Assembly: GCA_020847735.1 (NCBI GenBank)
Contig: JADLBL010000002.1
Location: 1-64,000, forward strand
Reading direction: 5' to 3'
DNA from: Candidatus Eisenbacteria bacterium
GTDB lineage: Bacteria > Eisenbacteria > RBG-16-71-46
DNA: 64,000 nt
This document shows positions 35,184 through 58,506 of this stretch, piece by piece (the first letter of the stretch is position 1; each line of letters starts with the position of its first letter). The translations under genes were made by a program, and so were the position numbers. The notes beneath the pieces are model-generated. The model was not told the DNA's origin. It made no database searches and was given only the letters and a program-made list of their open reading frames with translations.

Positions 35184-36545
35184 TTGCCTTCGACCAGCCT
35201 GGGTGCGGGCGGAATCGCCGCGGACCCGCCGCTCTCCCGCGCCTACGCGCCCCTCGCCGCCGCGGCGCTGCTCACCGCGCTCGCCGGGCCGGTTCTCAAT
35301 CTGGAACTGGCTCGCGACCCGAGTCCGGCCTCCGCCCTCGCGGGCTTCTGGCTCGGCTACTCGGTGCTGCTGCTCCTCGAAGCCGCGTGCGTGGTGTGGC
35401 AGTCCACCTCGCTCGCGTTCCTGGGCACGCCTCGCGCCCGCCGCCGCCTCGGCTGGCTGGCGCTGGCGACAGGCACGGCGACCTCCGTGCTGGTGTGGCT
35501 CGCCGGTCAGCCCGCGAGCTCCGCCTGGCTGTTCCGCGAAGTGGTGCCGACGAGCCGTGACGCCGCCCTCACCGCCGCGAACGTCCTGCGCGCGCTCGCG
35601 CCGCTGCCCGCGATCGTCGCGCTGCGCGGGGTGCTGGCCGCGAGCGTGCTGCGCGACGGGCGCGGAGCGGCGATCCCCGCGGCGCTGCTCGCGCGCCTGG
35701 CGGTCCTTTCGGCCTGGCCGCTTCTGCCGCATGGCGGGACGGGCGTCCGATCGGCCTGCGAAGCCCTGCTGGCGGGAGGCGTGATCGAGCTCGTCGTGCT
35801 CGCGCTCGCGCGCTCGGCCGCGCTCCCGCACGCGGCGCATCACGTTCCGCCCGCCGCGGCCCGGGTGGCCGCGGTCGCGGCCCCGCTGGTGGCCGCGACG
35901 CTCGCCTGGGCGGCGCTGCGCCCGGGCCTGCACGCCGTGCTCGGCCGGCTCGATCACCCCGAACTCGCACAGGCACGCTTCGGACTCGTGTTCGCCGTGT
36001 TCATGGCGCTGTGCGCGCCCGTGTGGGCCCTGCGCGATCTTGCGCTGCTGGCCGAGGGGGCGGGCGCCTCGCGCGATTCGGTTCGCCGCTTCGCCGGCCG
36101 CGTCGCGGCGGCGGCCTCGATCGCGTTCGCGGCGGTGCTGGTCGGGGCCGCGCTCCGTCCCGACATGGGGTCCGCGCTCGGCTTCGGTCCTGCGACGGGC
36201 GAGTTCGCGTGGGCGGCCGTGGCGCTGCTGACGCTGGCGCCCGCACTGGTCGCGGCGCGCATGCCGGCGCAGGGGCAGCTGATCGCGCGACACGTCACGA
36301 GCGTCTTCGGGTGGGCGCCGGCGCTGAGGCTGGCGCTGACGGTGGGGCTCGGGCTGATCGCCGCGCGCTTCGCACCGCGAATGGACGGCGCGACGCTCGG
36401 CGCGGCGCTGCTGCTCGCCGGCGAGGTCTTCGAGGTCTGGGCCTACGAGCGCGCCGTCGCGCTCACGCCCGGGTCGGACAGGCCGCAGGACGTGAGTACG
36501 CCCCACGCGGACGGCTCTCCCGATTCGATCGCGAGGGCGGCGTGA
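35184..36545 (+). CDS. Polytopic membrane protein upstream of apbE
   Basis: The product is 453 residues from a TTG. About twelve hydrophobic segments are spread over residues 20-425, with a hydrophilic tail. I recognise no family signature; the size and topology recall MATE/flippase-type transporters (RDAALTAANVLRALAPLPAIVAL). Its stop overlaps the apbE start (TGATG), so it is co-translated with the flavin transferase. It could be the membrane component of that system. Confidence 0.65.
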   Translation: MPSTSLGAGGIAADPPLSRAYAPLAAAALLTALAGPVLNLELARDPSPASALAGFWLGYSVLLLLEAACVVWQSTSLAFLGTPRARRRLGWLALATGTATSVLVWLAGQPASSAWLFREVVPTSRDAALTAANVLRALAPLPAIVALRGVLAASVLRDGRGAAIPAALLARLAVLSAWPLLPHGGTGVRSACEALLAGGVIELVVLALARSAALPHAAHHVPPAAARVAAVAAPLVAATLAWAALRPGLHAVLGRLDHPELAQARFGLVFAVFMALCAPVWALRDLALLAEGAGASRDSVRRFAGRVAAAASIAFAAVLVGAALRPDMGSALGFGPATGEFAWAAVALLTLAPALVAARMPAQGQLIARHVTSVFGWAPALRLALTVGLGLIAARFAPRMDGATLGAALLLAGEVFEVWAYERAVALTPGSDRPQDVSTPHADGSPDSIARAA

Positions 36546-37591
36546 TGGTCCGCCCCGGCGCCCGGCTCGTCGCCCTCGCGGCGTTGCTGGCGATCGGCAC
36601 GGGCGCCGCGCCGCGCTCGGTGACCTACCCCGGCCGCACGATGGGGACCTACGTGAACGTGACGCTGGTAACCCCCGACTCCGCGGCGAGCGCACCGCTG
36701 GCCGCGACCGCGCTGGCGGTCTTCCACCGCACCGACTCGCTGATGAGCAACTGGACCACGTCCAGCGAAGTGGCCCGGCTCAATCGCGAAGCCGCGGCGG
36801 GTCCGGTCACCGTGCAGCCCGAAGTCGCGAGGGTGCTGGAGGTGGCGCTCGACCTGTACGCCGAAACCGACCGGACTTTCGACGTGACGGTGGAGCCGCT
36901 GGTTCGCGCCTGGGGTTTTCTCGGCGGGCACCCGCACGTTCCGTCGGACTCGGCGGCGGCCGAGGCGTTCCGGCGTGTCGGCGCGGACCAGGTTCACTTC
37001 GACCCCGCGACGCGGACGCTGCGTTTCGCGAATCCCGGCGTGCGCGTGGATCTTGGCGGCATCGCCAAAGGCTGGGCGGTGGACGTCGCGGCGGAGTCCC
37101 TGCGCGCACACGGCGTGCACGACGCGCTCGTGGACCTGACGGGCAACATGAACGCGATGGGCCATCCCGCGGGATCCGAGGCCTGGCGGATCGGCATTCG
37201 CGACCCGCGCGATCGGGTGCCGTGGTTCGCCCGCATCACCCTGCGCGACGAAGCGATCTCGACCTCGGGCAAGTACGAGCAGTTCGTGGCGGCGGACGGC
37301 CGGACCTTCGGACACATCATGGATCCGCGCACGGGCCGCCCGGCCGAGGGTCTCATCTCGGTGACGCTCGTCTCGAAGAGCGCCTTCACCTGCGACGCCT
37401 GGGACACACCGTTGTTCGTTCTCGGCACCGAAGCGGCGAAGGCGAAGGCGCTCGCCCACCCCGAGTTCGAGGCGATCCTGGTCGAACCCGGTCGCGATGG
37501 TGTGGACACGGTGTGGGTGGAGTCGTCGCTCCTCGATCGCTTCCACCTCGAGCCCTCAGCGGCCGGATTCCTCCGCGTGCGGTCCTTCTAA
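36545..37591 (+). CDS. apbE: FAD:protein FMN transferase ApbE
   Basis: The product is 348 residues with an N-terminal signal segment. Motifs TYPGRTMGTYVNVTL, VDLGGIAKGWAVD, AISTSGKYEQF and FGHIMDPRTGRPA are all present. ApbE attaches FMN covalently to Ser/Thr of exported proteins, using FAD and Mg. The usual GG(D/N) in the substrate-site loop reads TGNMNAMG here. It lies upstream of a CX5CH lipoprotein, a dihaem lipoprotein, TlpA, DUF4266 and DUF3570 genes, a neighbourhood suggesting an extracytosolic redox system. Confidence 0.93.
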   Translation: MVRPGARLVALAALLAIGTGAAPRSVTYPGRTMGTYVNVTLVTPDSAASAPLAATALAVFHRTDSLMSNWTTSSEVARLNREAAAGPVTVQPEVARVLEVALDLYAETDRTFDVTVEPLVRAWGFLGGHPHVPSDSAAAEAFRRVGADQVHFDPATRTLRFANPGVRVDLGGIAKGWAVDVAAESLRAHGVHDALVDLTGNMNAMGHPAGSEAWRIGIRDPRDRVPWFARITLRDEAISTSGKYEQFVAADGRTFGHIMDPRTGRPAEGLISVTLVSKSAFTCDAWDTPLFVLGTEAAKAKALAHPEFEAILVEPGRDGVDTVWVESSLLDRFHLEPSAAGFLRVRSF

Positions 37592-37745
37592 TGTAGTCGG
37601 CCATTCCGTGCGGAGCGCGGTGCCGGCCCCTCCGCATGCACATGAGAGCGCGCACTCGCGGCCCGCTCCGCTTTCCGGGTCATTTCCCGGTATCCGGCGC
37701 CGAGGCACGACGCTTGCCCTGCACACCGCGTCCAACCCGACGGAC

Positions 37746-37820
37746 CTTGTGCCCGACGCGCACAAGCGAAGCCACAAACGACTTGCAGGCGCAACACGGA
37801 GCGCGTGCCCCCGCAATTGC
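37746..37820. promoter_or_regulatory. Two palindromes in the leader of the 18-gene run
   Basis: CTTGTGC (37746-37752) and GCACAAG (37760-37766) form an inverted repeat around seven bases. CCGCAATTGCGG at 37809-37820 is a perfect 12-base palindrome; a near copy lies at 14466. Both sit in the 299-bp gap (37592-37890) before the CX5CH lipoprotein gene, which otherwise holds no gene. They are candidate operator sites; no -10/-35 pair is convincing. Confidence 0.35.
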
Positions 37821-37890
37821 GGCTCGGGGTCGCGATTCGCAACGGAGCGCCTTGCACATTCGCAGTTTGAGTCCAGGAGAGGCGGAGCAC

Positions 37891-38346
37891 GTGAATCGGT
37901 TCACGAAGTCGGTGAGAAGCACGCGGCATTGCGCGCTGGCGATCCTGCTGGGATCGCCGTTGGTCGCGCTCGGCTGTGCCTCCCCGACCGCTCCACCTGC
38001 GCCGCCTTCGGGCGGCAAGACCTTCAACGGCAGCTATTCCGACTTCGTCGCCCAGGTCGAACCGGTGATCCAGCGCCGTGGTTGCGACACCGGTGGGGAT
38101 TGCCACGGCGGTGGTCCACGCGGGGCGTTCGAGCTCTCGCCCTCGGGTTCCAAGAACACGCGGTTCGATTTCGACCAGGTCTCGCTTCAGGTCAATCCGG
38201 TGACGCCGGACTCGAGCCGCATCCTCACCAAGCCGCTGGCGCTCGCCGCCGGCGGTGTGCCCCACTCGTTCAAGCCCTTCGCCAGCACCGCCGACACCGA
38301 CTTCGTCGCGATCCGCACCTGGGTGCTCGCCGGGGTGACGCCATGA
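37891..38346 (+). CDS. Small lipoprotein with CX5CH haem-like motif
   Basis: The product is 151 residues from a GTG with GGAGAGGCGGAG upstream. The signal peptide ends at lipobox LVALGC (Cys29). A Pro/Ala linker leads to a motif with Cys65 and Cys71-His72 (CDTGGDCHGG). This CX5CH spacing is not the classical CXXCH; similar Cys-His sites occur in small cytochrome-like or copper-binding lipoproteins. It may bind haem or a metal. It overlaps the next gene (ATGA) and begins the long gene run. Confidence 0.75.
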   Translation: MNRFTKSVRSTRHCALAILLGSPLVALGCASPTAPPAPPSGGKTFNGSYSDFVAQVEPVIQRRGCDTGGDCHGGGPRGAFELSPSGSKNTRFDFDQVSLQVNPVTPDSSRILTKPLALAAGGVPHSFKPFASTADTDFVAIRTWVLAGVTP

Positions 38347-39029
38347 CGCCCGTCCGCGCCGGCATGCTCGCGTTCGTGGCCTCGCTCGCGCTGGCCGCCG
38401 CGCCCGCGCACGCGCAGGACGCGCCCGCCGACAGCGCCGCCGGCTCGGAAGTCGCCGTGGGCGCGGAAGCCGCGTCCCCCGTGGCGCCGGCGCCGCCCGC
38501 GCACCGGCGCGACGGCCTCGAAGCGCTCGTGCCCGCGCTCGCCGAGAACGCCTACACGCTCGAGTCCGGTCCACGGCCGTTTCTCGACCGGCTGGCGGTG
38601 ACCCCGGCCTTCGGCGCGCTCGGATCCGAACGGCTGTTCGCGATCCGGGTGGCCTACAACCCGAATCGCTGGCTCGGCTACGAAGCCGAGCTCGCCCACA
38701 ACCCCAGCCAGGCGGTGCACGCGATCCTCCACCGCCTGAGCATTCTCGTTCGCCGCCCGCTGTCCGGGCGGCTGCAGCCCTACGTCACTGCCGGCTACGG
38801 CATGGCGGTCGTCCTCCCCGGACGATCCGTGAACGCGGATGCCGTCACCAAGAACATGCTCGCGCTGGGCGGCGGGCTGGAGCTGTACATCCGGGACGAT
38901 CTCGCGCTTCGGGCGGAGATGCGGCGCAGCACCGTCTTCGGACGCCAGGCGAACCGTGAAGGTCTGGTCGCGTACGACTACGCGGAGCAGACCCTGGGTC
39001 TCGCGTTCTACCGGACCATCAGGCCGTGA
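38343..39029 (+). CDS. Small outer-membrane beta-barrel protein
   Basis: The product is 228 residues with signal peptide ending AHAQ. After an Ala/Pro linker, residues about 85-228 show alternating strands typical of an eight-stranded OmpA-like barrel (FAIRVAYNPNRWLGYEAELAHN...LQPYVTAGYGMAVVLPG...LGLAFYRTIRP), with a terminal hydrophobic strand. It probably sits in the outer membrane with its partner lipoproteins. Confidence 0.75.
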   Translation: MTPVRAGMLAFVASLALAAAPAHAQDAPADSAAGSEVAVGAEAASPVAPAPPAHRRDGLEALVPALAENAYTLESGPRPFLDRLAVTPAFGALGSERLFAIRVAYNPNRWLGYEAELAHNPSQAVHAILHRLSILVRRPLSGRLQPYVTAGYGMAVVLPGRSVNADAVTKNMLALGGGLELYIRDDLALRAEMRRSTVFGRQANREGLVAYDYAEQTLGLAFYRTIRP

Positions 39030-39064
39030 CCCACGGATCCTCGACCGGAGGTCAAAGCGACATC

Positions 39065-41041
39065 ATGACGCCCCGAACCCAGCATCGCGCCTTCAAGGCC
39101 CTGTTCGCGCCGCTCGCCGCGGCGTGCCTGCTCCAGCTGTCGGCGGCCGGATGCCGCGACAGCGCGCCCGACGACCTCATCCAGCAGGAGCCGACCACCG
39201 ACGCGCTCGTGTTCGTCAAGACCACGGCCTCGGGCACGCTCAATCGCACCGAGGACGCCGGCAACCTGTTCAAACTCTCGCCCATCACTCCGGACGGCGT
39301 CGTCACTCCGGTCACCAACTTCACGGGCGCGAACGTGTGCGACCCGGCCGTATCGTTCGACGGCAAGAAGATCCTGTTCTCGATGCGCCCCTCGGGCGGA
39401 GGCGCGCACAACATCTACGAGATCGACGCCGACGGGACGAATCTGCGCCAGGTGACGAGCGGTGGCGGGGACGACTTCGATCCGCTCTACCTGCCGGACG
39501 GCCGCATCGCGTTCACCAGCACCCGGCCCGGCGAGATGGACGAGTACAACCACGCGCCTTCGGCCAGCCTGCACACCTGCAACATGGACGGCAGCGGCAT
39601 CGAGCGCATCAGCTTCAACCAGAGCGACGACTTCGATCCCGAGCTGCTCCCCGACGGACGGCTCGTGTACACGCGCTGGGAACACTTCGGGACCATGAAC
39701 CGGTTCCCCCTGTTCTTCACGAATCCCGACGGCACCGGCACGTTCCACTTCTTCGGCCCGCACGACCGGAACTTCTTCCACCCGGTCGTGGCGCCGGATG
39801 GCCGCATCATCTCGATCGAGTCCACGATGGTGAACGAGGACGAAGGCCCGCTGGCCGTCCTCAAGCCCGAGCAGGGGCCCGCCGACCCGACGACCGGCGC
39901 GCGTGCCCTGCACTGGGACGTCCTCACGCCGCAGGTCAACACCGACGGCGAGCCCTGGCCCTACGGTGCGTTCAAGTACCCGCGGCCGCTCGGCGGCAAC
40001 CGCTTCGTCGCGTCCTACACGCTTCCCGCGGCGACGCCCGAAGAGACGGACTACGCGCTCTACACGTTCACGCTCGCGCAGGCCGGCGCGGGCACCACGG
40101 CCGACCCCGCGACGTTCAGCGTCGCGGACCTGACGTTCCTCTACAACGACCCGAACACGAACGAGTTCGACGCCCAGTTGCTGGCGCCGCACGCCAAACC
40201 CCCGGTCATCGCGTCCACCGTGAACCGCATGGTGGACTACGGCGTGTTCCTCGCCCAGGACGTCTTCAACCGCGGCACCAACGACGGCCAGGAGCGCCCG
40301 CAGCGCGGTGTGGACCGCATTGACAGCATCGCGGTCATCGCGGCGCGGCCCACCCTCGTGGGCGAAATGAACGACTTCTCGGCGAACGAGTTCGAGAAGC
40401 GGGCGCTCATCGGCTTCGCGCCGGTGCAGTCCGATGGCTCGTTCAAGATCCGGGTGCCGGCGGACACGCCGATCAGCTTCGCCACGCTCGACAGCCTCGG
40501 CCGCGGTTTCGTCGTCAAGCGCACGCACCTCTACGTCCGCCCCGGCGAGACGTTCGATCGCTGCATCGGCTGCCACGAGGACCGGGTTCCGGGCGGGCCG
40601 TTCCCCACGAACCCCAACCCGATCGCGGGCATGCTCCCGGCGCACGACCTGAACATCCCGAAGTCGCAGTTCATGGTGATCAACTGGCAGAACGACATCG
40701 GACCCGTCGTGGCGGCCAAGTGCCAGAGCTGTCACACCCCTGTGATCAACGGGCCCGACACGACCCTGGCCGGCGGCCTCGATCTCACGACGGTCCCCGA
40801 CACGGTCCGCATGAACCGCATCTTCCCGCGCGCCTACGTGAACCTGTCGGGCGAAATGATGGACGGCCGCCGGCAGGAGACCGATCCCCCGTTCCCCCGC
40901 CGCTCGCGTCTCATTGACTACGTGCTCGGCGTGGGTTCGCGCAGCGGTTCGGGCGTGCACCCGACCGGCGCCGACTCGCTGACCGCGGTCGAGCGCCGCA
41001 AGTTCAACCTCTGGGTGCTTCTCGGCGCCCAGTACAAGTGA
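39065..41041 (+). CDS. Dihaem lipoprotein with TolB-like propeller, hydrazine synthase alpha-like
   Basis: The product is 658 residues; GGAGGT precedes the ATG at 39065 (an in-frame GTG at 39026 overlaps the previous stop). A lipobox precedes Cys30. Residues about 45-300 hold PD40/TolB-type blades (GKKILFSMRPSGGGAHNIYEIDADG). Two CXXCH haem sites follow: CIGCH at 500 and CQSCH at 553. The layout, propeller then C-terminal haems, recalls proteins annotated as hydrazine-synthase alpha-like in many non-anammox bacteria. It is probably an electron-carrying or oxidoreductase lipoprotein; the substrate is unknown. Confidence 0.8.
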   Translation: MTPRTQHRAFKALFAPLAAACLLQLSAAGCRDSAPDDLIQQEPTTDALVFVKTTASGTLNRTEDAGNLFKLSPITPDGVVTPVTNFTGANVCDPAVSFDGKKILFSMRPSGGGAHNIYEIDADGTNLRQVTSGGGDDFDPLYLPDGRIAFTSTRPGEMDEYNHAPSASLHTCNMDGSGIERISFNQSDDFDPELLPDGRLVYTRWEHFGTMNRFPLFFTNPDGTGTFHFFGPHDRNFFHPVVAPDGRIISIESTMVNEDEGPLAVLKPEQGPADPTTGARALHWDVLTPQVNTDGEPWPYGAFKYPRPLGGNRFVASYTLPAATPEETDYALYTFTLAQAGAGTTADPATFSVADLTFLYNDPNTNEFDAQLLAPHAKPPVIASTVNRMVDYGVFLAQDVFNRGTNDGQERPQRGVDRIDSIAVIAARPTLVGEMNDFSANEFEKRALIGFAPVQSDGSFKIRVPADTPISFATLDSLGRGFVVKRTHLYVRPGETFDRCIGCHEDRVPGGPFPTNPNPIAGMLPAHDLNIPKSQFMVINWQNDIGPVVAAKCQSCHTPVINGPDTTLAGGLDLTTVPDTVRMNRIFPRAYVNLSGEMMDGRRQETDPPFPRRSRLIDYVLGVGSRSGSGVHPTGADSLTAVERRKFNLWVLLGAQYK

Positions 41042-41652
41042 GCGAGTCCAGCATGAGCTTCCTTCTCACCCAGACCGTGCGTCGGGTGGCGTTCGCATCG
41101 GCGGTGGCGGCGATGGCCGCCGCCGGGCCGGTCGCGGGCGCGCCCCTGCCGGCGGCCGGCGCCGAGGCCCTCGGAGTCTCGAGTACGGTCGCCGAGACCG
41201 CCCTGGGCCGTCACTCGCTGCGCATGCTGGACGGTTCGAACACGTCGCTCTCGGCGATGCGCGGGCGCGTGGTGATCGTCAACTTCTGGGCGAGCTGGTG
41301 CTCGCCCTGCCGGCGCGAGCTGCCGAAGCTCGATGCGCTCCACCGCGAGTGGCGTTCGCAGGGCGCGTCGGTGCTCGCCGTCTCGATCGACGACGACGCC
41401 CGCAACGCCGGTCGCTTCGTCCGGAGCGGGCGGCTCTCCATGCCCATCGCCTGCGACGGCCCTCAGGGGCTGGCCCGTCAACTGAACCTTCGGCACGTGC
41501 CCGCGACGATCGTCCTGGACCGTGACGGCCGCATCGCCTGGAGCACCGGCCGCTCCGACGACGCCGAGCTGGCGAAGCTCACGTCCGTCGTGCGTCGCCT
41601 CGCGGGCGCCGCACCGGTGGCCGGCATCGAACCGAACGGAGGCGGACGATGA
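41038..41652 (+). CDS. TlpA-like thioredoxin-fold protein
   Basis: The product is 204 residues from a GTG overlapping the preceding stop (GTGA); ATG at 41053 is possible. The signal peptide ends near AGAPLPA. Thioredoxin fold with redox site WASWCSPC (Cys88, Cys91), then IDDDARNAGRFV and the cis-Pro in HVPATIVLD. It is a periplasmic thiol reductase, likely keeping Cys residues of the haem proteins or of DUF4266 (CACK) reduced. Coupled to the DUF4266 gene by ATGA. Confidence 0.9.
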   Translation: MSESSMSFLLTQTVRRVAFASAVAAMAAAGPVAGAPLPAAGAEALGVSSTVAETALGRHSLRMLDGSNTSLSAMRGRVVIVNFWASWCSPCRRELPKLDALHREWRSQGASVLAVSIDDDARNAGRFVRSGRLSMPIACDGPQGLARQLNLRHVPATIVLDRDGRIAWSTGRSDDAELAKLTSVVRRLAGAAPVAGIEPNGGGR

Positions 41653-41891
41653 GTTCGACGATGGAAAGGCGCGTCCTGCTGCTGATCCTCGCCCTGGCTG
41701 TCGCGGCCCCGATGCTCACGGGCTGCGCCGCGCATTCGGTCGCGGCCTACGAGCGCGAAAGACTCGCGGACCCCATCATGGCGTTCCAGGCGCGCGCCGC
41801 GAAGGACGCGCGCCGCGTGCGGGCGTTCGAGGCGCGCGAAGGCTCGACCGGCGGTGTCGGTGGCGAGGGCGGAGGCTGCGCGTGCAAGTGA
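41649..41891 (+). CDS. DUF4266 lipoprotein
   Basis: The product is 80 residues. Lipobox MLTGC precedes mature Cys26. The mature part has ERERLADPIMAFQ, REGSTGGVGGEGG and a C-terminal GGCACK, the whole DUF4266 pattern. The end with two Cys invites metal or redox chemistry, or disulphide exchange with the TlpA protein encoded just upstream. DUF4266 is usually found next to DUF3570, as here. Confidence 0.9.
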   Translation: MSSTMERRVLLLILALAVAAPMLTGCAAHSVAAYERERLADPIMAFQARAAKDARRVRAFEAREGSTGGVGGEGGGCACK

Positions 41892-43021
41892 CGCGCGGCA
41901 CGGGGCTCGGGTTCGCGGCGATCGCGCTCGGCGCGTTGGCGGCTTCCCCCGCCGGCGCGCAGGTCGCAGTCGCGAGCACCGCGAACGGGCTGTTCCGGAC
42001 GTTCGTGGACTCGAAGCACGTGCTGGTTCGCTCGTTCGTCGAGGATTTCACCGTGCCGCTTCGCGGCGACGGCAACGTGACGCTGCATTGGAACCACGAG
42101 CGGGTGCTCATCCCCGGCGTCGCGGCTCCCGCCGGGAGCGAGGAGGCGATTGACGCGATCACGACCGCGAGCCGGCCCATCGAGGGCAACGCGTTCCAGG
42201 ACTTCATCAAGGTCCGCAACGAGCTCGAGGGGCAGGTCAGTCGCGGTGGCGCTTCGCTGGGCTACTACCATTCGATCGAGAGCGACTACCTGGGGCACCA
42301 GGTGTCGGCCTCCTACAACCGCGACGTGCGCGACGACCAGATCAACATCTCGGTCGGGACCAGCTTCGGCTGGGACGACATCAAACCGCTCGTGGACCAG
42401 CGCGGCAGCACCGCGCCCGACCACAAGAACACGCTGCACGTGAATGCCGTCGCCACCCGCGTCCTTTCGCCGGTGTCCGTCGTGCGCCTGGGCGTCGAGG
42501 TCAATCGCGTCACCGGCCTGCAGCACAACCCCTACCGCATGGTGTATGCCGGCGGCACCACGATGCCCGAGCGGCACCCGGAGTCGCGACTGCGGCGCGA
42601 TGCCTTCCTGAAGTTGCACCACTACCTCGCGAACCGCTCGAGCCTCAAGTTCGACTACCGCCTCTACGACGACGATTGGGGCGTGCTCTCGCACGAGGTC
42701 GCGGGCGGTCTGTCGCAGTACATCACGCGCGGCCTGTACGCGCAGTACGAGTACCGCTGGTACACGCAGTCGAGCGCCGACTTCTGGCGCCCCGAGTACG
42801 CCACCACGCAGGGCGTGGACGGCTACGTCACGGGTGACTACCGGATGAGCCCGCTGTCGTCCCACCTGTTCGGCTTCAACCTGAACGCCGATCTCGGCGT
42901 GCTCGCGCCCGATTCACCGAAGTTTCGACGGTTCTCGGTCTCGCTCGACTACGAGCGCTACTTCAACAGCAACAACTATTCAGCGGACATCCTGGAGACG
43001 GGACTGGAGTTCCGGTTCTAG
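41882..43021 (+). CDS. DUF3570 outer-membrane protein
   Basis: The product is 379 residues from GTG 41882 (GGAGG six bases upstream); GTG 41888 would overlap the DUF4266 stop. Signal peptide ends AGAQ. The sequence YYHSIESDYLGHQVSASYNRDVRDDQINISVG and the C-terminal GLEFRF with terminal Phe indicate a large outer-membrane barrel (about 16 strands). DUF3570 has no known activity; context suggests an outer-membrane partner for DUF4266 and flavin/haem proteins. Confidence 0.88.
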   Translation: MQVTRGTGLGFAAIALGALAASPAGAQVAVASTANGLFRTFVDSKHVLVRSFVEDFTVPLRGDGNVTLHWNHERVLIPGVAAPAGSEEAIDAITTASRPIEGNAFQDFIKVRNELEGQVSRGGASLGYYHSIESDYLGHQVSASYNRDVRDDQINISVGTSFGWDDIKPLVDQRGSTAPDHKNTLHVNAVATRVLSPVSVVRLGVEVNRVTGLQHNPYRMVYAGGTTMPERHPESRLRRDAFLKLHHYLANRSSLKFDYRLYDDDWGVLSHEVAGGLSQYITRGLYAQYEYRWYTQSSADFWRPEYATTQGVDGYVTGDYRMSPLSSHLFGFNLNADLGVLAPDSPKFRRFSVSLDYERYFNSNNYSADILETGLEFRF

Positions 43022-43063: not shown

Positions 43064-44710
43064 GTGCGACGAGTCATTGTGCTGAGTCTCGGACTGTCCC
43101 TGGTCGCGGCGACCGCGCCGCAGGCGGGCACGTTCGAGCGCGCCCGCATCGTTCCCGACCTGGGTCTCGATGCCATCACCCGCGGTGTCACCCGCCAGCA
43201 GGTGGGGCGGGAGCTGTTCTCGGACCCGTGGGCCACGGCGACGATCGGACACGTGGACCTGTACGACGTCTTCCCCTACGTCGAGTCCCGTACGTTCCAG
43301 ATCGTCTCGGATCCGCGCTGGAACCGGCTCGTGATCGGCGAGGCTGGGCGGGCGCTGCGCGCCTACGACGGCGCCGGAACCCCGCTCGGCCGCCTCTCGG
43401 AGCCGCGCGGTCTGGCGGTGGACGAGAACGATCGCGTGTACGTGGCCGACGCGGGCAACGACCGGATCGTCGTCCTGCAGGCCAGCACCACGTACGGCGA
43501 GGTGACGCTCGAACCGCTCTACGAGATTCGCGGTCTTTCCCGGCCGTTCGACGTCGCCTGGTCGGACGGCGGCACGCCGTTCACCCCCGGTGACGACGCC
43601 CTCTACGTCGCCGACACGGGCCGCAATCGCGTCGCCGCATTCGCGCTCGGCGCCGGCTCGGCCCGCGAGGTCGCCGCCATCGGCGATCTCGGCAGCGGTC
43701 CTGGCCGCTTCGCCGGACCGATGGCGATTCGCGCCGGCCGCGAGGACGGCCGCAACACCCACGACGTGTTCGTCGCCGACGCGCACAACGGCCGGCTCGT
43801 GCGCCTTCTGCACGACGCCTCGGGGCTGCACTGGGCGTCCGAGACGAAGGTGGACGCCGACGTCGTCACCTCGCTGGACACCGATCAGTGGGGCAACCTC
43901 TACGCGGCGGCGCCCAACCGCGGAGTCGTGCGCAAGTACGCGCCCGACCTCTCGCCGGTCGCCGAGCTGCGCGGCGACCTGGTGCGCCCGCGCAACTTCC
44001 ACGTGCCGTTCTTCACGGTCCGCGACCACCGGACCGGTACGGTCACCCGCGAAGGCCGTGCGAACGGCCTGACCGTCGAGGAATGGACCGACGCGAGCGG
44101 CGTGCGCCTGTGGAACCTCGGCCTCGAGGTGCCGGAGCTGGCCGTCGCCGGCGCCGACCAGCCCGAAGCGCGTTTCACGCTCACCGATCGCGCCAGCGTC
44201 GTCGTCGAGCTGCTCGACGCCACCGGCGGTGCGCCGCTCGTTTCGCGTTCCGCGGGCACGCTCGAAGCCGGCGCGCACACGCTGGCCCTGACCGAGGCGG
44301 ATCGCGCCGCGGTCGCGGGTCGCGGCGACCTGCGCCTGCGGCTGGTCGCGACCTCCATGTACGCCGGCGGTCCCTCCGCCCAGGCCGAGACGGGCTTTCG
44401 CTGGAACAGCTCGGGCGCTCTCGCGCCTCCGGCCTTCGCCATGATGCTCGGCAGCTCGCCGAACCCCGCCGCCCGCTCGGCCCGCATCGCCTTCGCGTTG
44501 CCCGCCGGGTCCGGCGCCGCCTCGCTGCGCGTCTACGACTCGATGGGCCGCGCCGTTCGCTCGCTCGGCTCGTCGTTCGCCTCCGGCCGCAACGAGGTGA
44601 CCTGGGACCTGCGCTCCGACCGGGGTGGTCGTGTGGCGCCCGGCGTCTATTTCGCCCGCCTGACGACCGACGGCCGCGAGCTGTCGCAGCGGCTGGTGGT
44701 GATTCCGTGA
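43064..44710 (+). CDS. Secreted NHL-repeat beta-propeller protein with FlgD-like C-terminal domain
   Basis: The product is 548 residues from a GTG with AGAGGAG upstream. After a signal peptide, NHL-type blades run to about residue 310 (PRGLAVDENDRVYVADAGNDRIVVLQ, DALYVADTGRNRVAAF, HDVFVADAHNGRLVRL). The C-terminus (GSSPNPAARSARIAFAL to PGVYFARLTTDG) is a FlgD-like Ig domain, presumably a secretion or anchoring tail. The GTGA overlap couples it to the next lipoprotein gene. Confidence 0.85.
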   Translation: MRRVIVLSLGLSLVAATAPQAGTFERARIVPDLGLDAITRGVTRQQVGRELFSDPWATATIGHVDLYDVFPYVESRTFQIVSDPRWNRLVIGEAGRALRAYDGAGTPLGRLSEPRGLAVDENDRVYVADAGNDRIVVLQASTTYGEVTLEPLYEIRGLSRPFDVAWSDGGTPFTPGDDALYVADTGRNRVAAFALGAGSAREVAAIGDLGSGPGRFAGPMAIRAGREDGRNTHDVFVADAHNGRLVRLLHDASGLHWASETKVDADVVTSLDTDQWGNLYAAAPNRGVVRKYAPDLSPVAELRGDLVRPRNFHVPFFTVRDHRTGTVTREGRANGLTVEEWTDASGVRLWNLGLEVPELAVAGADQPEARFTLTDRASVVVELLDATGGAPLVSRSAGTLEAGAHTLALTEADRAAVAGRGDLRLRLVATSMYAGGPSAQAETGFRWNSSGALAPPAFAMMLGSSPNPAARSARIAFALPAGSGAASLRVYDSMGRAVRSLGSSFASGRNEVTWDLRSDRGGRVAPGVYFARLTTDGRELSQRLVVIP

Positions 44711-45342
44711 CGCAACCCCACCGGGCATGGGCGACGCGGGCGCGGCGGGCTTCCCGTCGCGCCGCGGCCCTGCTGGCGCTGGCCGCCTGCACGGCGAGCC
44801 TCGCCGGCTGCCTGGGCGCGCCCAAGATCGAGGATCGGTGGACTCGCATCGATCTCGCTTCGGCCAACCACGCGCCCGGGCAGAGCGTGCCTCCCGGCGT
44901 GCGCGACTCGGTGATGCTGGTCGCCCGCATCACCTACCGCGCGATCGTCACCGGGTACGCGGTGGCCGAGCTGCGGGCGAGCGGTTCGGTCGCCAACGGC
45001 GACGTGACGCTCTCGCCCGACGCCTCGCGCGAACCGATGGCTTACGACATTGACCGCATCCTCGCCAACTCGGTGTCGGTGGGGCGCACCGTGCACCCGA
45101 TCACCGGCTGGGACCACCTGGTCCAGACGCTGCCCATGTCCTTCGCCGCGGTCCCGCCGGCTTCGGTGGACACCACGGGCGCCACCTCGGGACTGTTCCT
45201 GCTCTGCTATTTGGGCAGCGGCGAGGAGATCGAGCTGCGCGACGGCTCCGACTCGATCGCGATCACCCCCTTCCCGGCCGCGCAATACCAGATCCTGCCC
45301 GTCGGCCTGAAGCTCACGCTCGGAACGGCGCCCACGCCGTGA
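44707..45342 (+). CDS. Lipoprotein of unknown function
   Basis: The product is 211 residues. A basic N-region and hydrophobic stretch end in lipobox SLAGC (Cys about 35). The mature part is beta-rich with no recognised family. VDTTGATS at 154-161 resembles, without fully matching, the ApbE flavinylation consensus (D-x-x-S/T-G-A-T), because the Asp is one residue too close. Overlaps both neighbours by four bases. Confidence 0.7.
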   Translation: MTQPHRAWATRARRASRRAAALLALAACTASLAGCLGAPKIEDRWTRIDLASANHAPGQSVPPGVRDSVMLVARITYRAIVTGYAVAELRASGSVANGDVTLSPDASREPMAYDIDRILANSVSVGRTVHPITGWDHLVQTLPMSFAAVPPASVDTTGATSGLFLLCYLGSGEEIELRDGSDSIAITPFPAAQYQILPVGLKLTLGTAPTP

Positions 45343-45989
45343 CGAACGCGACCCTGCGAATCGGCGCGCCGCTGCTGGCGCTGACCTGCCTGACCGCTCC
45401 CGCGCTGGCGATGGCCGCGCGACCGCTGTGGTTCGTGGGCGTCACGGGCGGCACGGCCCGATTCGACTCGCATCTCGCCGACTACCAATGGAACCTCGCG
45501 CCGCGCCCGGCATTCGGCGCGCAGGTCGGCGCCACCGTGGGCCGTTTCGGACTCGCCCTGCGCGGCTGGTCGGCACTGGCGGCGCAGCATGTGGACGCCT
45601 CCGCCTCGGTTCCCGACCCGGCGGTGCGCGTCACGACCTTCGATCTGGCCGGCGAGGCCACGCTCGCGCGCGGACTCGGGGCCGAGTTGCTGGCCCGCGG
45701 CAGCGCCGGCCGCGCCTCGCTCAGCTATTCGCCGGACCGGGTCACGCTCGACGCCGGCGGTGGCACGACGACCGTGGACCTCGCGCCGGTGCACGCCTTC
45801 ACCTGGGGCGCCGGCGCCGCGTTGAGGCGCCCGATCGCCCCCCGATGGATGGCCGCGCTGGCGGTCGAACGCACCGCCCTGTCCTTCGAAACCGCGCATC
45901 GCTCCGGCTCCGGAGTGACGTACGCGCGGGAGACCTTCGGCAATTGGAATGGCCGGCTCGAGCTGGCCCGCTACTTCGGCGAGCGATGA
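45339..45989 (+). CDS. Outer-membrane beta-barrel protein
   Basis: The product is 216 residues from a GTG (GTGA overlap). A signal peptide precedes amphipathic strands ending in NGRLELARYF, the pattern of an eight-stranded barrel. No family is evident. Probably an outer-membrane partner of the neighbouring lipoprotein. Confidence 0.7.
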   Translation: MTNATLRIGAPLLALTCLTAPALAMAARPLWFVGVTGGTARFDSHLADYQWNLAPRPAFGAQVGATVGRFGLALRGWSALAAQHVDASASVPDPAVRVTTFDLAGEATLARGLGAELLARGSAGRASLSYSPDRVTLDAGGGTTTVDLAPVHAFTWGAGAALRRPIAPRWMAALAVERTALSFETAHRSGSGVTYARETFGNWNGRLELARYFGER

Positions 45990-46003
45990 AAGGAAGGACC
46001 CGC

Positions 46004-46975
46004 ATGAAGGCGCAGGGATCGCAGCCACACCGCTCCCGACCCGCAGTTCCGTTCGCCCGCACGGCGCGGGCGACGTGGTCGCTGCTGGCGCTGCTCGCGC
46101 TGCCGGCGCTCGCCCTGCCCGCACGGGCGCAGGACGAATCCGCGGCCGACAGTCTCGCGGCCCCGGTCGTCGTCGGTGAGTCCACCGACACGGCGCCGCT
46201 CGGCGACAGCACGCTCGCGGCACCCGCGGCTCCGGTCATGAACCCGCAGCTCAAGGTCGGATCGAAGCGCGTGCGCCTGACCGGCGCCGCGCGCAATGTC
46301 GTGCGCTCGGGCCCCGGCGACACCTACGCGGTCGTCGGCGTCTTCAAGGCGAAGACCGAGTTTCCGGTGTTCGCCAAGAGCGGCGACTGGTACGGCGTCA
46401 AGCTGTCCGACACCGAGACGGGCTGGGTGCATCGCTCGCTGTGCAAGGAACTCGACGACGTGTCGGGCCTCGAGTTCAAGCCGAACCCGCGACTCTACTC
46501 GCGCACGGGAGCGTTCCTGATCGAGGGCTACACGGGCGGCTACGCGTTCGATCAGAAGTCGAACTCCCTCGTCGCCGGCGGCCGGCTCGGCTACTACGTC
46601 TTCGACCGCCTGACGGTCGAGGGCGGCCTGTCGTGGACGCACGTGCGCCGCCCCGCCGAGATCGTGGAGTCGCTCTTCGGCCTGTCGCTCGAGGCCGAGG
46701 ACTTCCACATGATGTTCTACCACTTCATGGCGACGTACGAACTGCTGCCGGGCCGGCAGATGGTGCCGTACGTCAGCGTCGGCGCCGGCTCCAGCATCAT
46801 GAAGGGCGAGTCCGAGCCCAGCCTGAACCTCGGCGCCGGAACGACGATGTACCTCTCGCGCCGCACCGCGGTGCGCTGGGAAGTGCGGGACTACCGCATG
46901 AAGACGGGCGCCGCCAACGCGCGCCAGACCCACCACAACGTCGAACTCACGATCGGCACTCTTTACCTCTTCTAG
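46004..46975 (+). CDS. Outer-membrane barrel protein with N-terminal bacterial SH3 domain
   Basis: The product is 323 residues from the ATG at 46004, which has AAGGAAGG in good position; an earlier ATG at 45986 overlaps the previous stop. After the signal peptide (ends PARAQ) a bacterial SH3 domain lies at about 80-145 (ARNVVRSGPGDTYAVVGVF...GWVHRSLC). Residues 160-323 form an outer-membrane barrel ending NVELTIGTLYLF. SH3b domains bind peptidoglycan peptides, so the protein may bridge wall and outer membrane. Confidence 0.78.
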   Translation: MKAQGSQPHRSRPAVPFARTARATWSLLALLALPALALPARAQDESAADSLAAPVVVGESTDTAPLGDSTLAAPAAPVMNPQLKVGSKRVRLTGAARNVVRSGPGDTYAVVGVFKAKTEFPVFAKSGDWYGVKLSDTETGWVHRSLCKELDDVSGLEFKPNPRLYSRTGAFLIEGYTGGYAFDQKSNSLVAGGRLGYYVFDRLTVEGGLSWTHVRRPAEIVESLFGLSLEAEDFHMMFYHFMATYELLPGRQMVPYVSVGAGSSIMKGESEPSLNLGAGTTMYLSRRTAVRWEVRDYRMKTGAANARQTHHNVELTIGTLYLF

Positions 46976-46984
46976 GAGCGCGTC

Positions 46985-47548
46985 ATGAAGAATGGACTCC
47001 TCCGCCCCCTCGGGGCCGCGCTGCTGGTCGCGGCGTGCCTCGCGGCCCCCGCGGGCGCCAAGGCGCCGCCGCCCATCGCGGCGCGAGCCGGCCTCGAGCT
47101 GGCCCGCGCCGCCGCCACCGCCTGGGCGGCCGACTCCCGACTGGTCTACGTCGAGAACGACGAGGACGTGGACGCCGACGGCGGCGCCGCGCGCTGGGGC
47201 TACCTGTTCGTCTCCCCCGCGACCGGACGCGCACGCGCATGGTCCGTTCGCGACGGCCGCATCGCCGCGGCCGAGAACGTCGAGATGGCGTTCGAGGCCC
47301 CGCCGCTGCCCGAAGGCTGGATCGACAGCGGCGCCGCGCTGGCGGCGGCCGACCGCGAGGCGGGCCGCGCGTTCCGCAAGGGAGCGCAGGGCCACCTGAG
47401 CACGATGCTGTTGATGCGCGGGGCGTTCGACGAATCGGATCCCGACCGCACGACCTGGACGCTCGTCTACACGGCCCCGGGCGCGCCGTCGCTGTGGGTC
47501 GTCGTGGACGCGGCCGAAGGCAAGGTCCGCCGGACCTGGAGGGGCTGA
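46985..47548 (+). CDS. Secreted PepSY-like protein
   Basis: The product is 187 residues with signal peptide ending AGAKA. Two lobes of similar pattern follow: AATAWAADSRLVYVENDEDVD...GRARAWSVRDGRI, and FRKGAQGHLSTMLL...LWVVVDAAEGKVRRTWRG. This resembles PepSY-type domains, but the match is weak. It sits nine bases after the SH3-barrel gene and six before the next. Confidence 0.6.
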   Translation: MKNGLLRPLGAALLVAACLAAPAGAKAPPPIAARAGLELARAAATAWAADSRLVYVENDEDVDADGGAARWGYLFVSPATGRARAWSVRDGRIAAAENVEMAFEAPPLPEGWIDSGAALAAADREAGRAFRKGAQGHLSTMLLMRGAFDESDPDRTTWTLVYTAPGAPSLWVVVDAAEGKVRRTWRG

Positions 47549-47553
47549 CCGTC

Positions 47554-48357
47554 ATGCGCCCGAAACTGCTCCTTCCGACCCTGTGGTTCGTCGCCATCGG
47601 CGCGGCCACCTCGCTCGCGGGCGTGACTCCCGGCGAAACGCCGACCGAGGTGCGCGTCCAGCGCGTCAAGCCCGACCGGCCGAAGCTGCCGACGCTGCGT
47701 TTCCTCGGCGCCAACCGCGACTACCTGCGCGCCGAGCTGGACCGCCTGCGCGCGAAGACCGTGAGCGTGAGCGGCGAGGCCGCGGCGATCGACCCGCGCT
47801 TCCTGCGCTACGGCGAGATGGTCGCGGCGGCGCGGGCCGCCGGCGACTCCGCGGCCGCCGCGGACTCGGCCCGCTCGGGACGTGAGTTGTTCGCGAGCGT
47901 CACCGAGCTGGGCGGGCTCGAGGGCGAGCTGGACCAGCTCGACCGCGCGCTCGCGCGCCAGCGCGAGCGGCTCGGCGTGCTGCAGGCGGATTTCGCCGGC
48001 ACGCAGCGCACCGCGCTGGCCGTCGTCCTGAGCGGCTGGCCCGGCGACGACGCGCCGCGGGCGCTGGTGATTTCGCTCGAGGATGGCACCCGCGAAACCG
48101 TGAACCTTTCGCCCGAGCAGTGCGACGCGCTGCGTACGGGCGGGGCCGTGCAGGTGCTCCACCGCCTGCTCGAGCCACGCGAGCAGGTCTTCGAGTTCGC
48201 CTTCGGCGGCGGCGCGCCCGGCTGGCTCGAGCTGGACCCGGCGCGCGACCGGCTGAACCTGCTGCGCCTGGACATCTCCCACCTGGCCGCGGACGACTCC
48301 TCGAGCGTCGCGGCCACCGCCTGGGTGCTGGACGACCGGACCGCCCTCGCCCGGTGA
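47554..48357 (+). CDS. Secreted coiled-coil protein of unknown function
   Basis: The product is 267 residues with an N-terminal signal peptide. An Ala/Arg/Glu-rich helical part (about 50-155) looks like a coiled coil (ELGGLEGELDQLDRALARQRERLGVLQ). The rest is a beta-type domain. No family recognised. Its stop overlaps the start of the TPR giant (GTGA), suggesting they work together. Confidence 0.65.
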   Translation: MRPKLLLPTLWFVAIGAATSLAGVTPGETPTEVRVQRVKPDRPKLPTLRFLGANRDYLRAELDRLRAKTVSVSGEAAAIDPRFLRYGEMVAAARAAGDSAAAADSARSGRELFASVTELGGLEGELDQLDRALARQRERLGVLQADFAGTQRTALAVVLSGWPGDDAPRALVISLEDGTRETVNLSPEQCDALRTGGAVQVLHRLLEPREQVFEFAFGGGAPGWLELDPARDRLNLLRLDISHLAADDSSSVAATAWVLDDRTALAR

Positions 48358-51300
48358 GCTCGACTTCCCCGAACTCGCGCGCCGCCCATCCCGGCGCTCC
48401 GCGGGCGTTCGCGTGGCTGCTCGCCGCGCTCGCGCTCGGCGCTTTCGGCGCGCCCTCCTCGGCGACGGAAGCCCCGCCCGCGGTCCGGCCGGTGGTCGGC
48501 GACTCGCTCGGGGAGGGCGCGCTGCGCCTGGCCCGCGCTCAGGCGGCGTGGCGCATGGGGCAGCCGCTCGAGGTGATCCGCGTGCTCGAAGCGGTGGACT
48601 TCGCCTCCCCACCCGCGTTCGAGGGGGCGGACCGCGCGGCGTTCCTGCTCGCGCAGGCGTGGCTTCGCCTCGGCGCGCACGCGCGTTTCGATTCGCTCGC
48701 CCGCCAGGTCGCCGGCTGGCCCCGCTCCAGCGAGTTCACGCGTGCGCTCGCCGACCAGCGCGCGCTGCTCGATCCGGCCGCCGACGCCCGCGGGGCGCTG
48801 CACGCCGGCGGCGCGCCACGCCTGCGTGAAGACGCCGAGGGCGCGGTGCACTTCCGCGCCGCCGCCGAGAGCGTCGCCGCCGGCGGGGACGCGCGCGACG
48901 AACTCGGCCGCGTGCCCGGCGGGAGCGCGCACGATCCCGCCGCACGCGACCTGGCGGCGCGCCTCGCGTACGAACGGGGCGATTCCTCGACGGCCGTGCG
49001 TGCGCTGGCGAACCTGCTCGAGCGCGATCCCGGTTACGCGAACCGGCGCGAACTCGAGGCGCTGCTCGCCGACGACGCCCTGCGCCGCGGCGACGCCCAC
49101 GAGGCCTACCGGCTCTGGGGGACGCTCGACGCCGAATGGACCGCGACGCGCGATTCGTTGCGCACGCTGGCGACCCGGAAGGACCTCGAGCCGCTCATCG
49201 CCGCGTGGGAGGACGATCCCGCCGCGAGCGGCGCGCCGCTCGTGCCGGCCCGCCGCTCGCGCGAGGGCGCGGCGGCGCTCGGCCGCTCGCGCGCCGACCG
49301 TGGTGAAGGCGCCGGCGATCCGGGCGCCGCGTTCGACCGCCCCGAGCGGGTGGTCACCGCCGCCCGCGTGCTGCCTCCCTCGGCCCCGGAGTGGGCCGCG
49401 CTCTCGAACGCGCAGGCGCGCACCGGCGAGGCGGACGCCGCGGCCGCGCGGGCGGGCGACGAGGCCCGGCGGGAGCGTGAGAGCGCCGCCGAGCTGCAGC
49501 GCTACCTGCGGACCGGTCAGGACTCGCTGGCGCGCGAGCACGCGCGCATCGAAACGCGCCTCGCGCGCCTCGGCGAGCTGCACCGCGCGCTCGATGCGAT
49601 CGACGCCCGGCTCCGGGCCGTGCGCGATTCGGCCACACGACGGGTCCTGCGCCGCGCCGCGGCGCTGCTCGCGGCATGCGAGGCGAACCAGCGCTGGATC
49701 GCCGGGCTCGACCATTTCTGGGTGAAGGGCCCCGCGCCGATGCGCGCTCCGGCGGGCTACGCGAGCCCGGAGTCGGTGCTCGTCGTCGAGCGCGCGCTCG
49801 TGCGCGGCGTCGCCGACATCGCCGCGCGCGTCGCGGCCGAGAGCCCCGGCACCATCGCGCGTTCGTACGAACGGGCATGGCGGCCGGGCGTGCTCGACCG
49901 CATCGCCCGGCAGGACGCCGAAGCGGCCGCCTCGCTCGCGTGGGCGAAGCGGCTCGCCGGCTCGCTCGACTCGAGCCTCGCGGTCGCGACCCGTGCCGAG
50001 CTCTCTCGTGCGCTGGCGGCCCGCGCCGAACGCCTGGCGGGTCATGCCGACTCGCTGCGCGCCGCCGCGGGCCGCGAACGCGACGCCGTGGCGCGTTCGG
50101 CGGTGCGTCGCACGCTGGCGACGATGGAAGACGAGCGCGAAGCGATCGACTACGGCCTCGCCGCCTCCGCCTGGGCGATCGCCGCCGGCCTGGACCACGC
50201 GACCGATGCCGGCGCCGCCGACTCCGGCGCGGCCGCGCAGTCACCTGAAGCGTCGCGCTGGCGCGACGAGGCGATCTCCCGCCTGCAGGCGTTTCTCGCC
50301 GGCCATCCCGGGGCGGCCGGGCGCGCCGACGCGCGCTACCGTCTCGCCGACCTGCTCGAGCAGCGCGCGCGCGTGGCGTTCCGCGCCCGCATGGAGCAGT
50401 ACCTGAAGTCGCCCACGGGCACGGTGCCCGTCCTTGAGACCGGACCGTCCATCGCGCTCCATCGCGCGAGCCTGCAGGACGACCCGAAGTTCCAGCATCG
50501 CGACGCGGTGCTTTACGACCTCGGCACTCTGCTGGCGGAACGCGGCGATGCCGGGGCGATCACCTGCTTCCGCACGCTGGTCAACGATCATCCGGATTCG
50601 CCGCTGGCGCAGGAGTCGTGGCTGCACCTCGCCGACGAGGCGTTCGACCAGCAGCGCTTCTACGACGCCGTCCCCCTCTACCGCGCCGCGGTCGAGGGCG
50701 CAGACACGACGCTGCGCACCATCGCGCTCTACAAGCTCGGTTGGACCGAGTTCCACGTGGACCACTTCGAGCAGGCGGCCGACGCGTTCGGCGACGTGCT
50801 GGACCTGTACGCCGCCGGCCGAGTGGACGCGCGCATCCGCCTCGACGATGACGCCGAGGTGCTGCTCGTCCATTCGCTGGCGCGCGGGGGCGGCGCCGAG
50901 GCGTTCACCGCGCACTTCGAGCGCGTCGGCCCGCGGCCCTACGAGATGCGGCTGCTGCGGGCGCTCGGGCAGCACTTCCGCAAGTACGCGCTGTTCGGGC
51001 CCGCGATCGCCGCCGATCAGCTGATGCTCGACCGCTACCCGCTCGCGCCCGACGCGCTCGAGTCGGCGCGGCGCATGGACGAGACCTACCGCCGCTGGAA
51101 CCATCCCGAGGAGCGCCGTGCGGCGCTGCTGGCCAACGCCGAACGCTTCTCCCCCGGCAGCGCGTGGATCACGGCGAGGGCGGGCGACTCGCTGACGACC
51201 CGGGGCGATTCGCTGCGCGCGGCCGGCGACGCGTTCGCCCGCGCGGCGCTGCTCGAGGTCGCGTGGGAGCACCATGCGGCCGGACGCGAGCGGGGCGACG

Positions 51301-52988: not shown

Positions 52989-53368
52989 CAATGCGCGCGC
53001 TCCGGATCGTGGTTCTTGCCGGTCTCCTGCTCGCCGCCGCGCCCGTCGGCGCCGCGACCGCCTCGACGCCGGCGAAGCGTGCCGCAGCCGCGAAGCGGCC
53101 CGCGGTGGCGCAGCCGCCCCGCCCCGGCACGCCGGCCGCGGCCCCGGGGACCGAGGCTCGCCGCCTCGGCGACGTGCACATCGAGGGAGAAGTCGAAGTG
53201 CCGCGCGTGACCTTCATCACGGTGCGCCAGCCGCACCGCTTCACCGACTACGCCCGGGCGACGTCGGTGCGTCCGGCCCGCCGACTGGCGACCGACGCGA
53301 CGTTCCCGGCCTGGATTTCACCTTCACCCCACGCTGCAAGCGATGCACGAAAGGAGAACCGCAAATGA
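52985..53368 (+). CDS. Small secreted protein of the ExbB/AgmX cluster
   Basis: The product is 127 residues with signal peptide ending GAATA. After an Ala/Lys/Pro linker comes GDVHIEGEVEVPRVTFITVRQPHRFTDY, a block I associate with short proteins next to TolQ/TolR-like genes in gliding-type clusters. Overlaps the TPR gene and exbB by ATGA at each end. Function unknown. Confidence 0.65.
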   Translation: MTMRALRIVVLAGLLLAAAPVGAATASTPAKRAAAAKRPAVAQPPRPGTPAAAPGTEARRLGDVHIEGEVEVPRVTFITVRQPHRFTDYARATSVRPARRLATDATFPAWISPSPHAASDARKENRK

Positions 53369-54085: not shown

Positions 54086-54586
54086 ATGGCCGGCCGGCAC
54101 GCAAGGCGCGGCAAGGGGCACCGGGTCGAGACACCCGATCTCGAACTGATGCCCATGCTGAACGTCTTCATCTCGATCATCCCGATGCTGCTGCTGTCGG
54201 CGGCGTTCGTGCAGCTCGCGGTCATCCCCACGGGGCTGCCCGCGAACGCGGCCGCTGTCACCCCTCCGCCGGAGGCCGCGGACGATGCGCCGCCGCCGCC
54301 GGTCACGATCTGGATCCGCTCCTCGGACTACATCGTCGAGGGCCAGGGGCTCGCGCGCCGCTCGTTCGCACGCACCCCGGGCGGCGAAGGGTCGAAGGAC
54401 CCGGGACGACTTCAGCTCGAAGCGGCCCTGCGGGCGCTGGGTTCGCGCGAAGGCAGGAAGCCCGAAGTCCGCATCGTTCCCGAAACCCGCACCCGCTACG
54501 AAGAGATCATCGACATCATGGACCTGGCACGCGCCGCGGGAATGCCGAACGCCGCGCTCGCCGACGCGGTCCCGGGAGCCGTCTGA
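54086..54586 (+). CDS. ExbD/TolR-like protein lacking the membrane Asp
   Basis: The product is 166 residues with one N-terminal transmembrane helix (MLNVFISIIPMLLLSAAFV). ExbD/TolR normally has a proton-carrying Asp at the start of this helix (LLDV); here it is Asn26. The periplasmic part shows ExbD-like features (VRIVPETRTRYEEIIDIMDLARAAGM). It begins five bases after exbB. The neighbouring second ExbD keeps the Asp, so the pair may be heteromeric. Confidence 0.85.
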   Translation: MAGRHARRGKGHRVETPDLELMPMLNVFISIIPMLLLSAAFVQLAVIPTGLPANAAAVTPPPEAADDAPPPPVTIWIRSSDYIVEGQGLARRSFARTPGGEGSKDPGRLQLEAALRALGSREGRKPEVRIVPETRTRYEEIIDIMDLARAAGMPNAALADAVPGAV

Positions 54587-56970: not shown

Positions 56971-56995
56971 GCCGGCCACTCCCCTGGCGTCGCGA

Positions 56996-58438: not shown

Positions 58439-58506
58439 GGTCTTCTCCTGGGTCCTCGGACCCTCGTCAGACTGTTGGGTTTCGGGGTACATGATCCGCT
58501 CCTGGG

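Follow-up and report, generated by a model that had tools for sequence, protein, structure and literature searches.

The window analysed here, the 64,000-nucleotide stretch at positions 1 to 64,000 of contig JADLBL010000002.1 (assembly GCA_020847735.1) of a Candidatus Eisenbacteria bacterium, belongs to a genome that is 99.6% complete (G000, contig C2). It carries on its plus strand a block of 19 genes, extending from an ApbE gene at 36.5 kb to an AgmX-type gene that ends at 56265, in an uninterrupted order that is conserved among relatives. The block brings together an ApbE/TlpA/DUF4266/DUF3570 module, a small CXnCH lipoprotein, small barrels, a dihaem lipoprotein resembling hydrazine synthase alpha (the HZSA of this text), an NHL protein, a giant TPR protein, and the set ExbB-ExbD-ExbD-AgmX. 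In our judgement the chances are evenly balanced that the region encodes one proton-driven, Glt/TonB-like trans-envelope machine, through which a flavin-thiol-haem electron path would reach the outer membrane. Our observations are of gene content, gene order, co-occurrence, motif conservation, and predicted folds. The arguments for a single machine are the fixed order in ca. 22 loci, with a divergent copy (G230) and a related cluster (G340) outside the phylum; the joint presence of HZSA and AgmX in 13 of 13 genomes and their joint absence within the same genus; genomes with a sole ApbE and a sole DUF3570, the conserved D...AS column with SGAS in two members, and the predicted DUF3570 barrel; and the invariant haem motifs, the DsbD and Ccm genes, and the published DUF3570 flavinylation and DUF4266 thiol proposal (PMC8238504).

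Conservation and distribution of the block

A sequence-only reading of this DNA had closed the unit at 43021. The conserved unit is about twice as long, running to 56265 and including an ExbB/ExbD/ExbD/AgmX/TPR machine that had not been linked to it: downstream of 43021 follow genes for the NHL protein, a lipoprotein, a barrel-like protein, an SH3-barrel protein, two proteins without clear family, the 1544-amino-acid TPR protein, a small exported protein, ExbB, two ExbD, and the AgmX/PglI TonB-like protein. The genes named by that reading are all in place, with matches for ApbE, HZS_alpha, barrel, TlpA, DUF4266, and DUF3570, and its mostly overlapping starts and stops correspond to 4-base overlaps at four junctions, CX5CH/barrel (38343-38346), HZSA/TlpA (41038-41041), TlpA/DUF4266 (41649-41652), and DUF4266/DUF3570 (41888-41891); a gap of 300 bases separates ApbE from the CX5CH gene.

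The order CXnCH-barrel-HZSA-TlpA-DUF4266-DUF3570-NHL was seen, to the extent of the contigs, in ca. 22 non-redundant loci, a recurrence that excludes chance as its cause and bears out the expectation that these genes are conserved together. When the HZS-alpha-like alignment was scanned against one genome per species (84,980 species), 21 loci were retrieved, in genomes named Eisenbacteria or Krumholzibacteriia or with another or no phylum label, and the block order was the same in all of them as far as the contigs and fetched flanks reached. apbE adjoins the block in 13 loci, lies 9 kb upstream in one, and in two is absent from the fetched flank but encoded elsewhere in the genome. ExbB-ExbD-ExbD-AgmX is present in the relatives' loci wherever the contigs extend far enough.

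Among 47 genomes of the phylum, HZSA was found with a high score in 13 (in two of these the gene is partial or split between contigs) and AgmX over the cut-off in 14, both together in 13, that is, in every HZSA-bearing genome (Fisher p = 1e-10). The sole genome with AgmX and without HZSA is G016, in which AgmX sits at a contig edge. Since shared ancestry inflates this p-value, the alternation of both genes within one genus and family is the better argument, and two genomes of the window's own genus have neither HZSA nor AgmX.

In a wider sample of 385 genomes, one from outside the phylum (G230) was found to have a divergent, AgmX-containing copy of the block, and G340 a related, rearranged cluster. 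The latter has in line genes for an HZS-alpha-like protein, an SH3-barrel, an OMP_myx barrel, TlpA, DUF4266, DUF3570, TPR proteins, ExbB, ExbD, ExbD, and AgmX, with apbE nearby. We assign G340 to the gammaproteobacteria because the cluster is flanked by apt-dnaX-ybaB and recR-htpG (our own reading of the translated genes) and because its htpG DNA is 70% identical to that of E. coli over the aligned 60%. The stretch separating apbE from the HZS-alpha-like gene in this cluster (L164, 11978-16258) encodes, on the other strand, a LamG-domain protein, which matches CXXCH weakly, and a protein whose start is twin-arginine-like. Around the remote HZS-alpha-like genes of G334, G073, G201, and G167, the module was not found in the stretches read. 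Plasmid-borne relatives were also sought by tblastn, with weak or classic-type matches only.

The flavin and thiol module

ApbE (36545..37591; PF02424, E = 2.7e-80), an exported flavin adenine dinucleotide (FAD):protein flavin mononucleotide (FMN) transferase, is single copy in the window genome. It is followed in the block by a TlpA/ResA-like thioredoxin with WCSPC (41038..41652; AhpC-TSA, E = 1e-22) and by a DUF4266 lipoprotein (41649..41891; PF14086, E = 1e-13), whose Gly-rich C-terminal arm ends in CACK in the window and in CACN or CACK in relatives. This half of the locus is a known module, since ApbE, DUF3570, a thioredoxin-like protein, and DUF4266 were reported together in hundreds of clusters, and since co-expression showed that the DUF3570 protein of Chlorobium luteolum is flavinylated at two [S/T]GA[S/T] motifs (Méheust et al. 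2021, PMC8238504). DUF3570, previously read here as a family with no assigned activity, is therefore a demonstrated ApbE substrate, and redox cycling was proposed for the CXC end of DUF4266 in the same work. The window genome also has one DsbD and Ccm-type genes (PF01578).

The DUF3570 protein of the window (41888..43021; E = 5e-36) is a probable FMN carrier, predicted by AlphaFold2 as a 16-strand outer-membrane barrel (predicted local distance difference test score [pLDDT], 84.5) with outer-membrane channels as best PDB matches. The earlier proposal of an extracytosolic redox system that has a component in the outer membrane is supported. The proposed FMN attachment site, DAITTAS (residues 89-95; 42152..42172), lies in the long connection between strands beta3 and beta4 (block pLDDT about 68-77). 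Because the odd-even connections of the model tend to be long and the even-odd ones short, ordinary barrel topology would place the site on the outer or lumen side, with moderate local confidence.

The D, A, and S columns of this site are invariant; in 23 block-type DUF3570 proteins D89, A94, S95, R96, and P97 are all conserved and the site reads TTAS or TSAS, while two (L067 and L071) have SGAS. The sites in G340 are SSAS and STAS. As the window protein has one site, TTAS, instead of two [S/T]GA[S/T] motifs, and SGAS occurs in two block members only, we consider the system a related variant of the DUF3570 system of Méheust et al.; the block-type proteins fall into a single clade (support 0.99), separate from the classic module. 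Three genomes, that of the window (G000), G012, and G069, have exactly one ApbE and one DUF3570 each, and in them no FMN_bind protein was detected. DUF2271, considered as a further ApbE substrate, was rejected, as all its matches in the three genomes were below the cut-off, which leaves that ApbE with DUF3570 alone among the known substrate families and indirectly favours covalent FMN on this protein. The block ApbEs presumably accept TTAS and TSAS, and flavinylation of the variant site is putative.

Motor, scaffold, and barrels

The distal part of the block encodes an ExbB/TolQ proton channel (53365..54081; PF01618, E = 2e-23), two ExbD proteins (54086..54586, PF02472, E = 1e-12; and 54588..55067, E = 3e-13), and an AgmX/PglI-type TonB-like arm (55078..56265; NF033768, E = 2e-23, with GltG and GltJ matches). 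Upstream of them are a 1544-amino-acid TPR protein with YbgF/BamD-like repeats (48354..52988) and a small exported protein conserved among relatives and assigned to no family (52985..53368). Barrels are represented by a small outer-membrane barrel next to the haem lipoproteins (38343..39029; PF13505, E = 5e-8, and a weak match to TIGR04565, OMP_myx_plus), a weakly barrel-like exported protein (45339..45989), and a protein with an SH3 domain and an OMP_myx_plus barrel (45986..46975; PF08239 and TIGR04565, E = 8e-18). The remaining members are an NHL-repeat propeller of conserved position with a FlgD-Ig or type IX secretion system (T9SS)-like tail (43064..44710), a lipoprotein without family (44707..45342), a conserved exported protein without family (46985..47548), and an exported coiled-coil-like protein with a weak FtsL match (47554..48357). 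The DTTGATS motif of the lipoprotein was considered as a second ApbE site and discarded, since orthologues do not keep it.

These proteins could instead point to a Glt/Nfs-like surface machine, for motility or transport of an envelope polymer, as the main function, with TlpA, DUF4266, DUF3570, and the haem lipoproteins as helpers that set the thiol state of surface proteins or act as a redox switch of the motor. The motor parts do resemble the Glt core (ExbB, two ExbD, an AgmX/GltG-like arm, TPR, and OMP_myx barrels), the NHL protein has a surface-sorting-like tail, and Glt-type complexes serve motility and the spore coat in Myxococcus (PMC3169522). However, three haem sites and a dedicated ApbE exceed the needs of a folding aid, and the Glt core complex alone did not drive motility (PMC3169522), so that we regard this explanation as unlikely, if still to be taken seriously.

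Predicted haem lipoproteins

Two predicted haem lipoproteins lie upstream of TlpA. The small one (37891..38346; lipobox VALGC) is a predicted monohaem cytochrome, recognised from the alignment of its orthologues, which have CX5CH in some cases and CX4CH in others and keep the cysteines, the His, and a distal His invariant, as would be expected of a putative haem-c site; no Pfam cytochrome match was obtained. The large one (39065..41041; PF18582, E = 2.2e-15, and PD40 repeats) combines a TolB-like propeller, an HZS_alpha middle domain, and two CXXCH motifs, both invariant across 22 orthologues. The similarity to hydrazine synthase alpha suggested earlier was upheld at the level of sequence (E = 7e-19) and of structure (5c2v_A, E = 5.6e-33, template modelling score 0.70). 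Both lipoproteins would presumably be loaded with haem.

The full-length fold match could be taken to mean that the HZS-alpha-like protein is itself catalytic, with a small nitrogen or sulphur compound as its substrate, and that the rest of the block supplies or removes electrons and substrate; the two invariant haem sites and the invariant His 207, 228, 233, and 239, which surround the position of Cys303 on the propeller, would fit such a role. Against it, Tyr591, which we take to be the ligand of haem alpha-I in hydrazine synthase alpha, is replaced by Val at the aligned place of the window protein (CIGCHEDRV versus CSGCHYGSY), and Cys303, presumably functional in hydrazine synthase alpha, is matched to an invariant His where the alignment is weak. 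Moreover, no family of the beta or gamma subunits is found among the proteins of the block, to which this search was confined, and remote HZS-alpha-like proteins exist without the module. Given the absent ligand Tyr and the lack of partner subunits within the block, it is not a hydrazine synthase and hydrazine synthesis was discarded; the oxidation of a small nitrogen compound offered by the sequence-only reading found no positive support, and we hold a true enzyme of this kind to be improbable.

A proposed trans-envelope machine with an electron path

In the machine that we propose, carrier order, direction of the electrons, substrate, role of the motor, and its link to the redox proteins are all putative. 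ExbB and the two ExbD would form a proton-driven inner-membrane motor, in which the proton flow moves AgmX and, through this AgmX/GltG-like TonB arm and the TPR scaffold, acts on outer-membrane barrels. ApbE would attach FMN to the DUF3570 barrel at DAITTAS, and TlpA would exchange electrons with this flavin by way of DUF4266, using its flexible CXC arm at the C terminus. A thiol chain of DsbD, TlpA, and DUF4266, together with the haem lipoproteins, would connect to the FMN on DUF3570, and the CXnCH and dihaem HZS-alpha-like lipoproteins may relay the electrons further or employ them in a reaction with a substrate.

Several observations weigh against this proposal. ApbE is located away from the block in a few genomes, G230 has no ExbB or ExbD beside its AgmX, and block-type DUF3570 proteins mostly lack the canonical G of the ApbE motif and have one site instead of two. 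The link from thiol and flavin to haem is one of guilt by association, and the conserved block offers no connection to the quinone or NADH pool.

We give little credence to a TonB-type uptake system with a motor-gated barrel for a metal or metal complex, which flavin and haems would reduce at the cell surface or in the periplasm: ExbBD and a TonB-like arm are in the block, and a ferrous iron transporter is present in some DUF3570 clusters (PMC8238504), but the block has no TonB-dependent receptor, periplasmic binding protein, or metal transporter.

Going further, we tentatively suggest, with the chances leaning against it, that the single proton-driven machine represents a new type, in which a Glt/TonB-type proton motor and an outer-membrane flavin-haem conduit work as one unit, the FMN of DUF3570 lies at or near the surface, the HZS-alpha-like protein performs or feeds a redox reaction, and the distribution spans several phyla, including Gammaproteobacteria. 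The DUF3570/DUF4266 module and a Glt-like core of the type reported from gammaproteobacteria, listed separately as of unknown function, now share one locus with HZS-alpha-like haem proteins, and each gains a partner and a testable role. The proposal predicts that an outer-membrane barrel bears a flavin, that the target motif of ApbE is broader than known, D..[S/T][G/S/T]AS, and that extracytosolic redox proteins are coupled physically to a proton motor. The related gammaproteobacterial cluster of G340 may bring the system within reach of cultured organisms.

Neighbouring genes and classic modules

Immediately upstream of the block, a multi-helix membrane protein without family match (35184..36545) ends where ApbE begins, the start of the latter lying inside its stop codon (36543-36547). 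The overlap had been noted earlier for what was called a 12-helix protein and is confirmed; its membership of the system is not, since this local neighbour, with ca. 10 helices by hydropathy count, is not conserved. No homologue was detectable upstream of apbE in nine other loci, and the protein is present only in a genome of the same genus (L026). For lack of conservation we left it out of the core and rejected it as a core electron-entry protein. Downstream of the block, the minus strand (56341-59190) codes for START/SRPBCC-like, porin-like, and YceI-like proteins, as judged by eye alone. Scanning the window against Rfam gave no match.

Classic TlpA-DUF4266-DUF3570-ApbE modules appeared elsewhere. 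One, in contig C89 of G004 (L028/L029), directly adjoins the block on its AgmX side, the two being convergently oriented, with both DUF3570 types side by side; G004 and G009 each carry a block-type and a classic DUF3570. A DUF4266/DUF3570 pair in contig C47 of G028 (L042, 8851-10223), the second of that genome, has no informative neighbours (no HZSA, TlpA, or ApbE recognised nearby), and its DUF3570, with TSAS and TSAT sites, groups with the gammaproteobacterial one. Another classic module lies on the 1.85-Mb replicon of the cultured Vibrio sp. THAF191d (L170, 16255-19315; the plasmid table lists no gene for this stretch), with neither HZSA nor AgmX nearby, and makes this strain a possible laboratory model for the known, flavin/thiol half.

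Comparison with known systems

We found no literature joining the Glt-like core, the main published parallel to the motor, to HZS-alpha-like, DUF3570, or ApbE genes, or HZS-alpha to ApbE, ExbD, or DUF3570, in the sources searched, which were other than subscription papers and supplementary tables. Tol-Pal and TonB-ExbBD share with the block a proton-driven ExbBD motor, a TonB-like arm, a YbgF-like TPR protein, and a TolB-like propeller, whereas the block has two ExbD genes and neither a TonB-dependent receptor nor Pal. The HZS-alpha-like protein has the propeller, the HZS_alpha domain, the second haem domain, and both CXXCH motifs of Kuenenia hydrazine synthase alpha (5c2v), from which it differs by an identity of only ca. 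20%, besides the missing Tyr591 and beta/gamma subunits.

With the Glt/Agl core and Nfs of Myxococcus (Luciano et al. 2011, PMC3169522), the region shares ExbB and two ExbD (as AglR, AglQ, and AglS), a TonB-like arm, TPR proteins, and outer-membrane barrels in one region. In place of the three TPR proteins GltC, GltD, and GltE, the window has a single giant one (G340 has three), and its arm, of 395 amino acids, matches NF033768, GltG, and GltJ at the C terminus, with no forkhead-associated (FHA) domain match found. The window motor is moreover linked to redox genes, which are not listed in the core of PMC3169522, a work that leaves open the role of the Glt-like core complex in gammaproteobacteria. 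The clusters of Méheust et al. (PMC8238504) have the same four families adjacent, with the D...AS site in DUF3570 and the C-terminal CXC in DUF4266; in contrast, the DUF3570 of the window belongs to a clade of its own with one TTAS/TSAS site, has no adjacent DsbD, and stands with its module inside a block of 19 genes that also holds haem lipoproteins and an ExbBD/AgmX motor. Each half is of a known kind, and their union with haem lipoproteins as one conserved locus appears to be undescribed.

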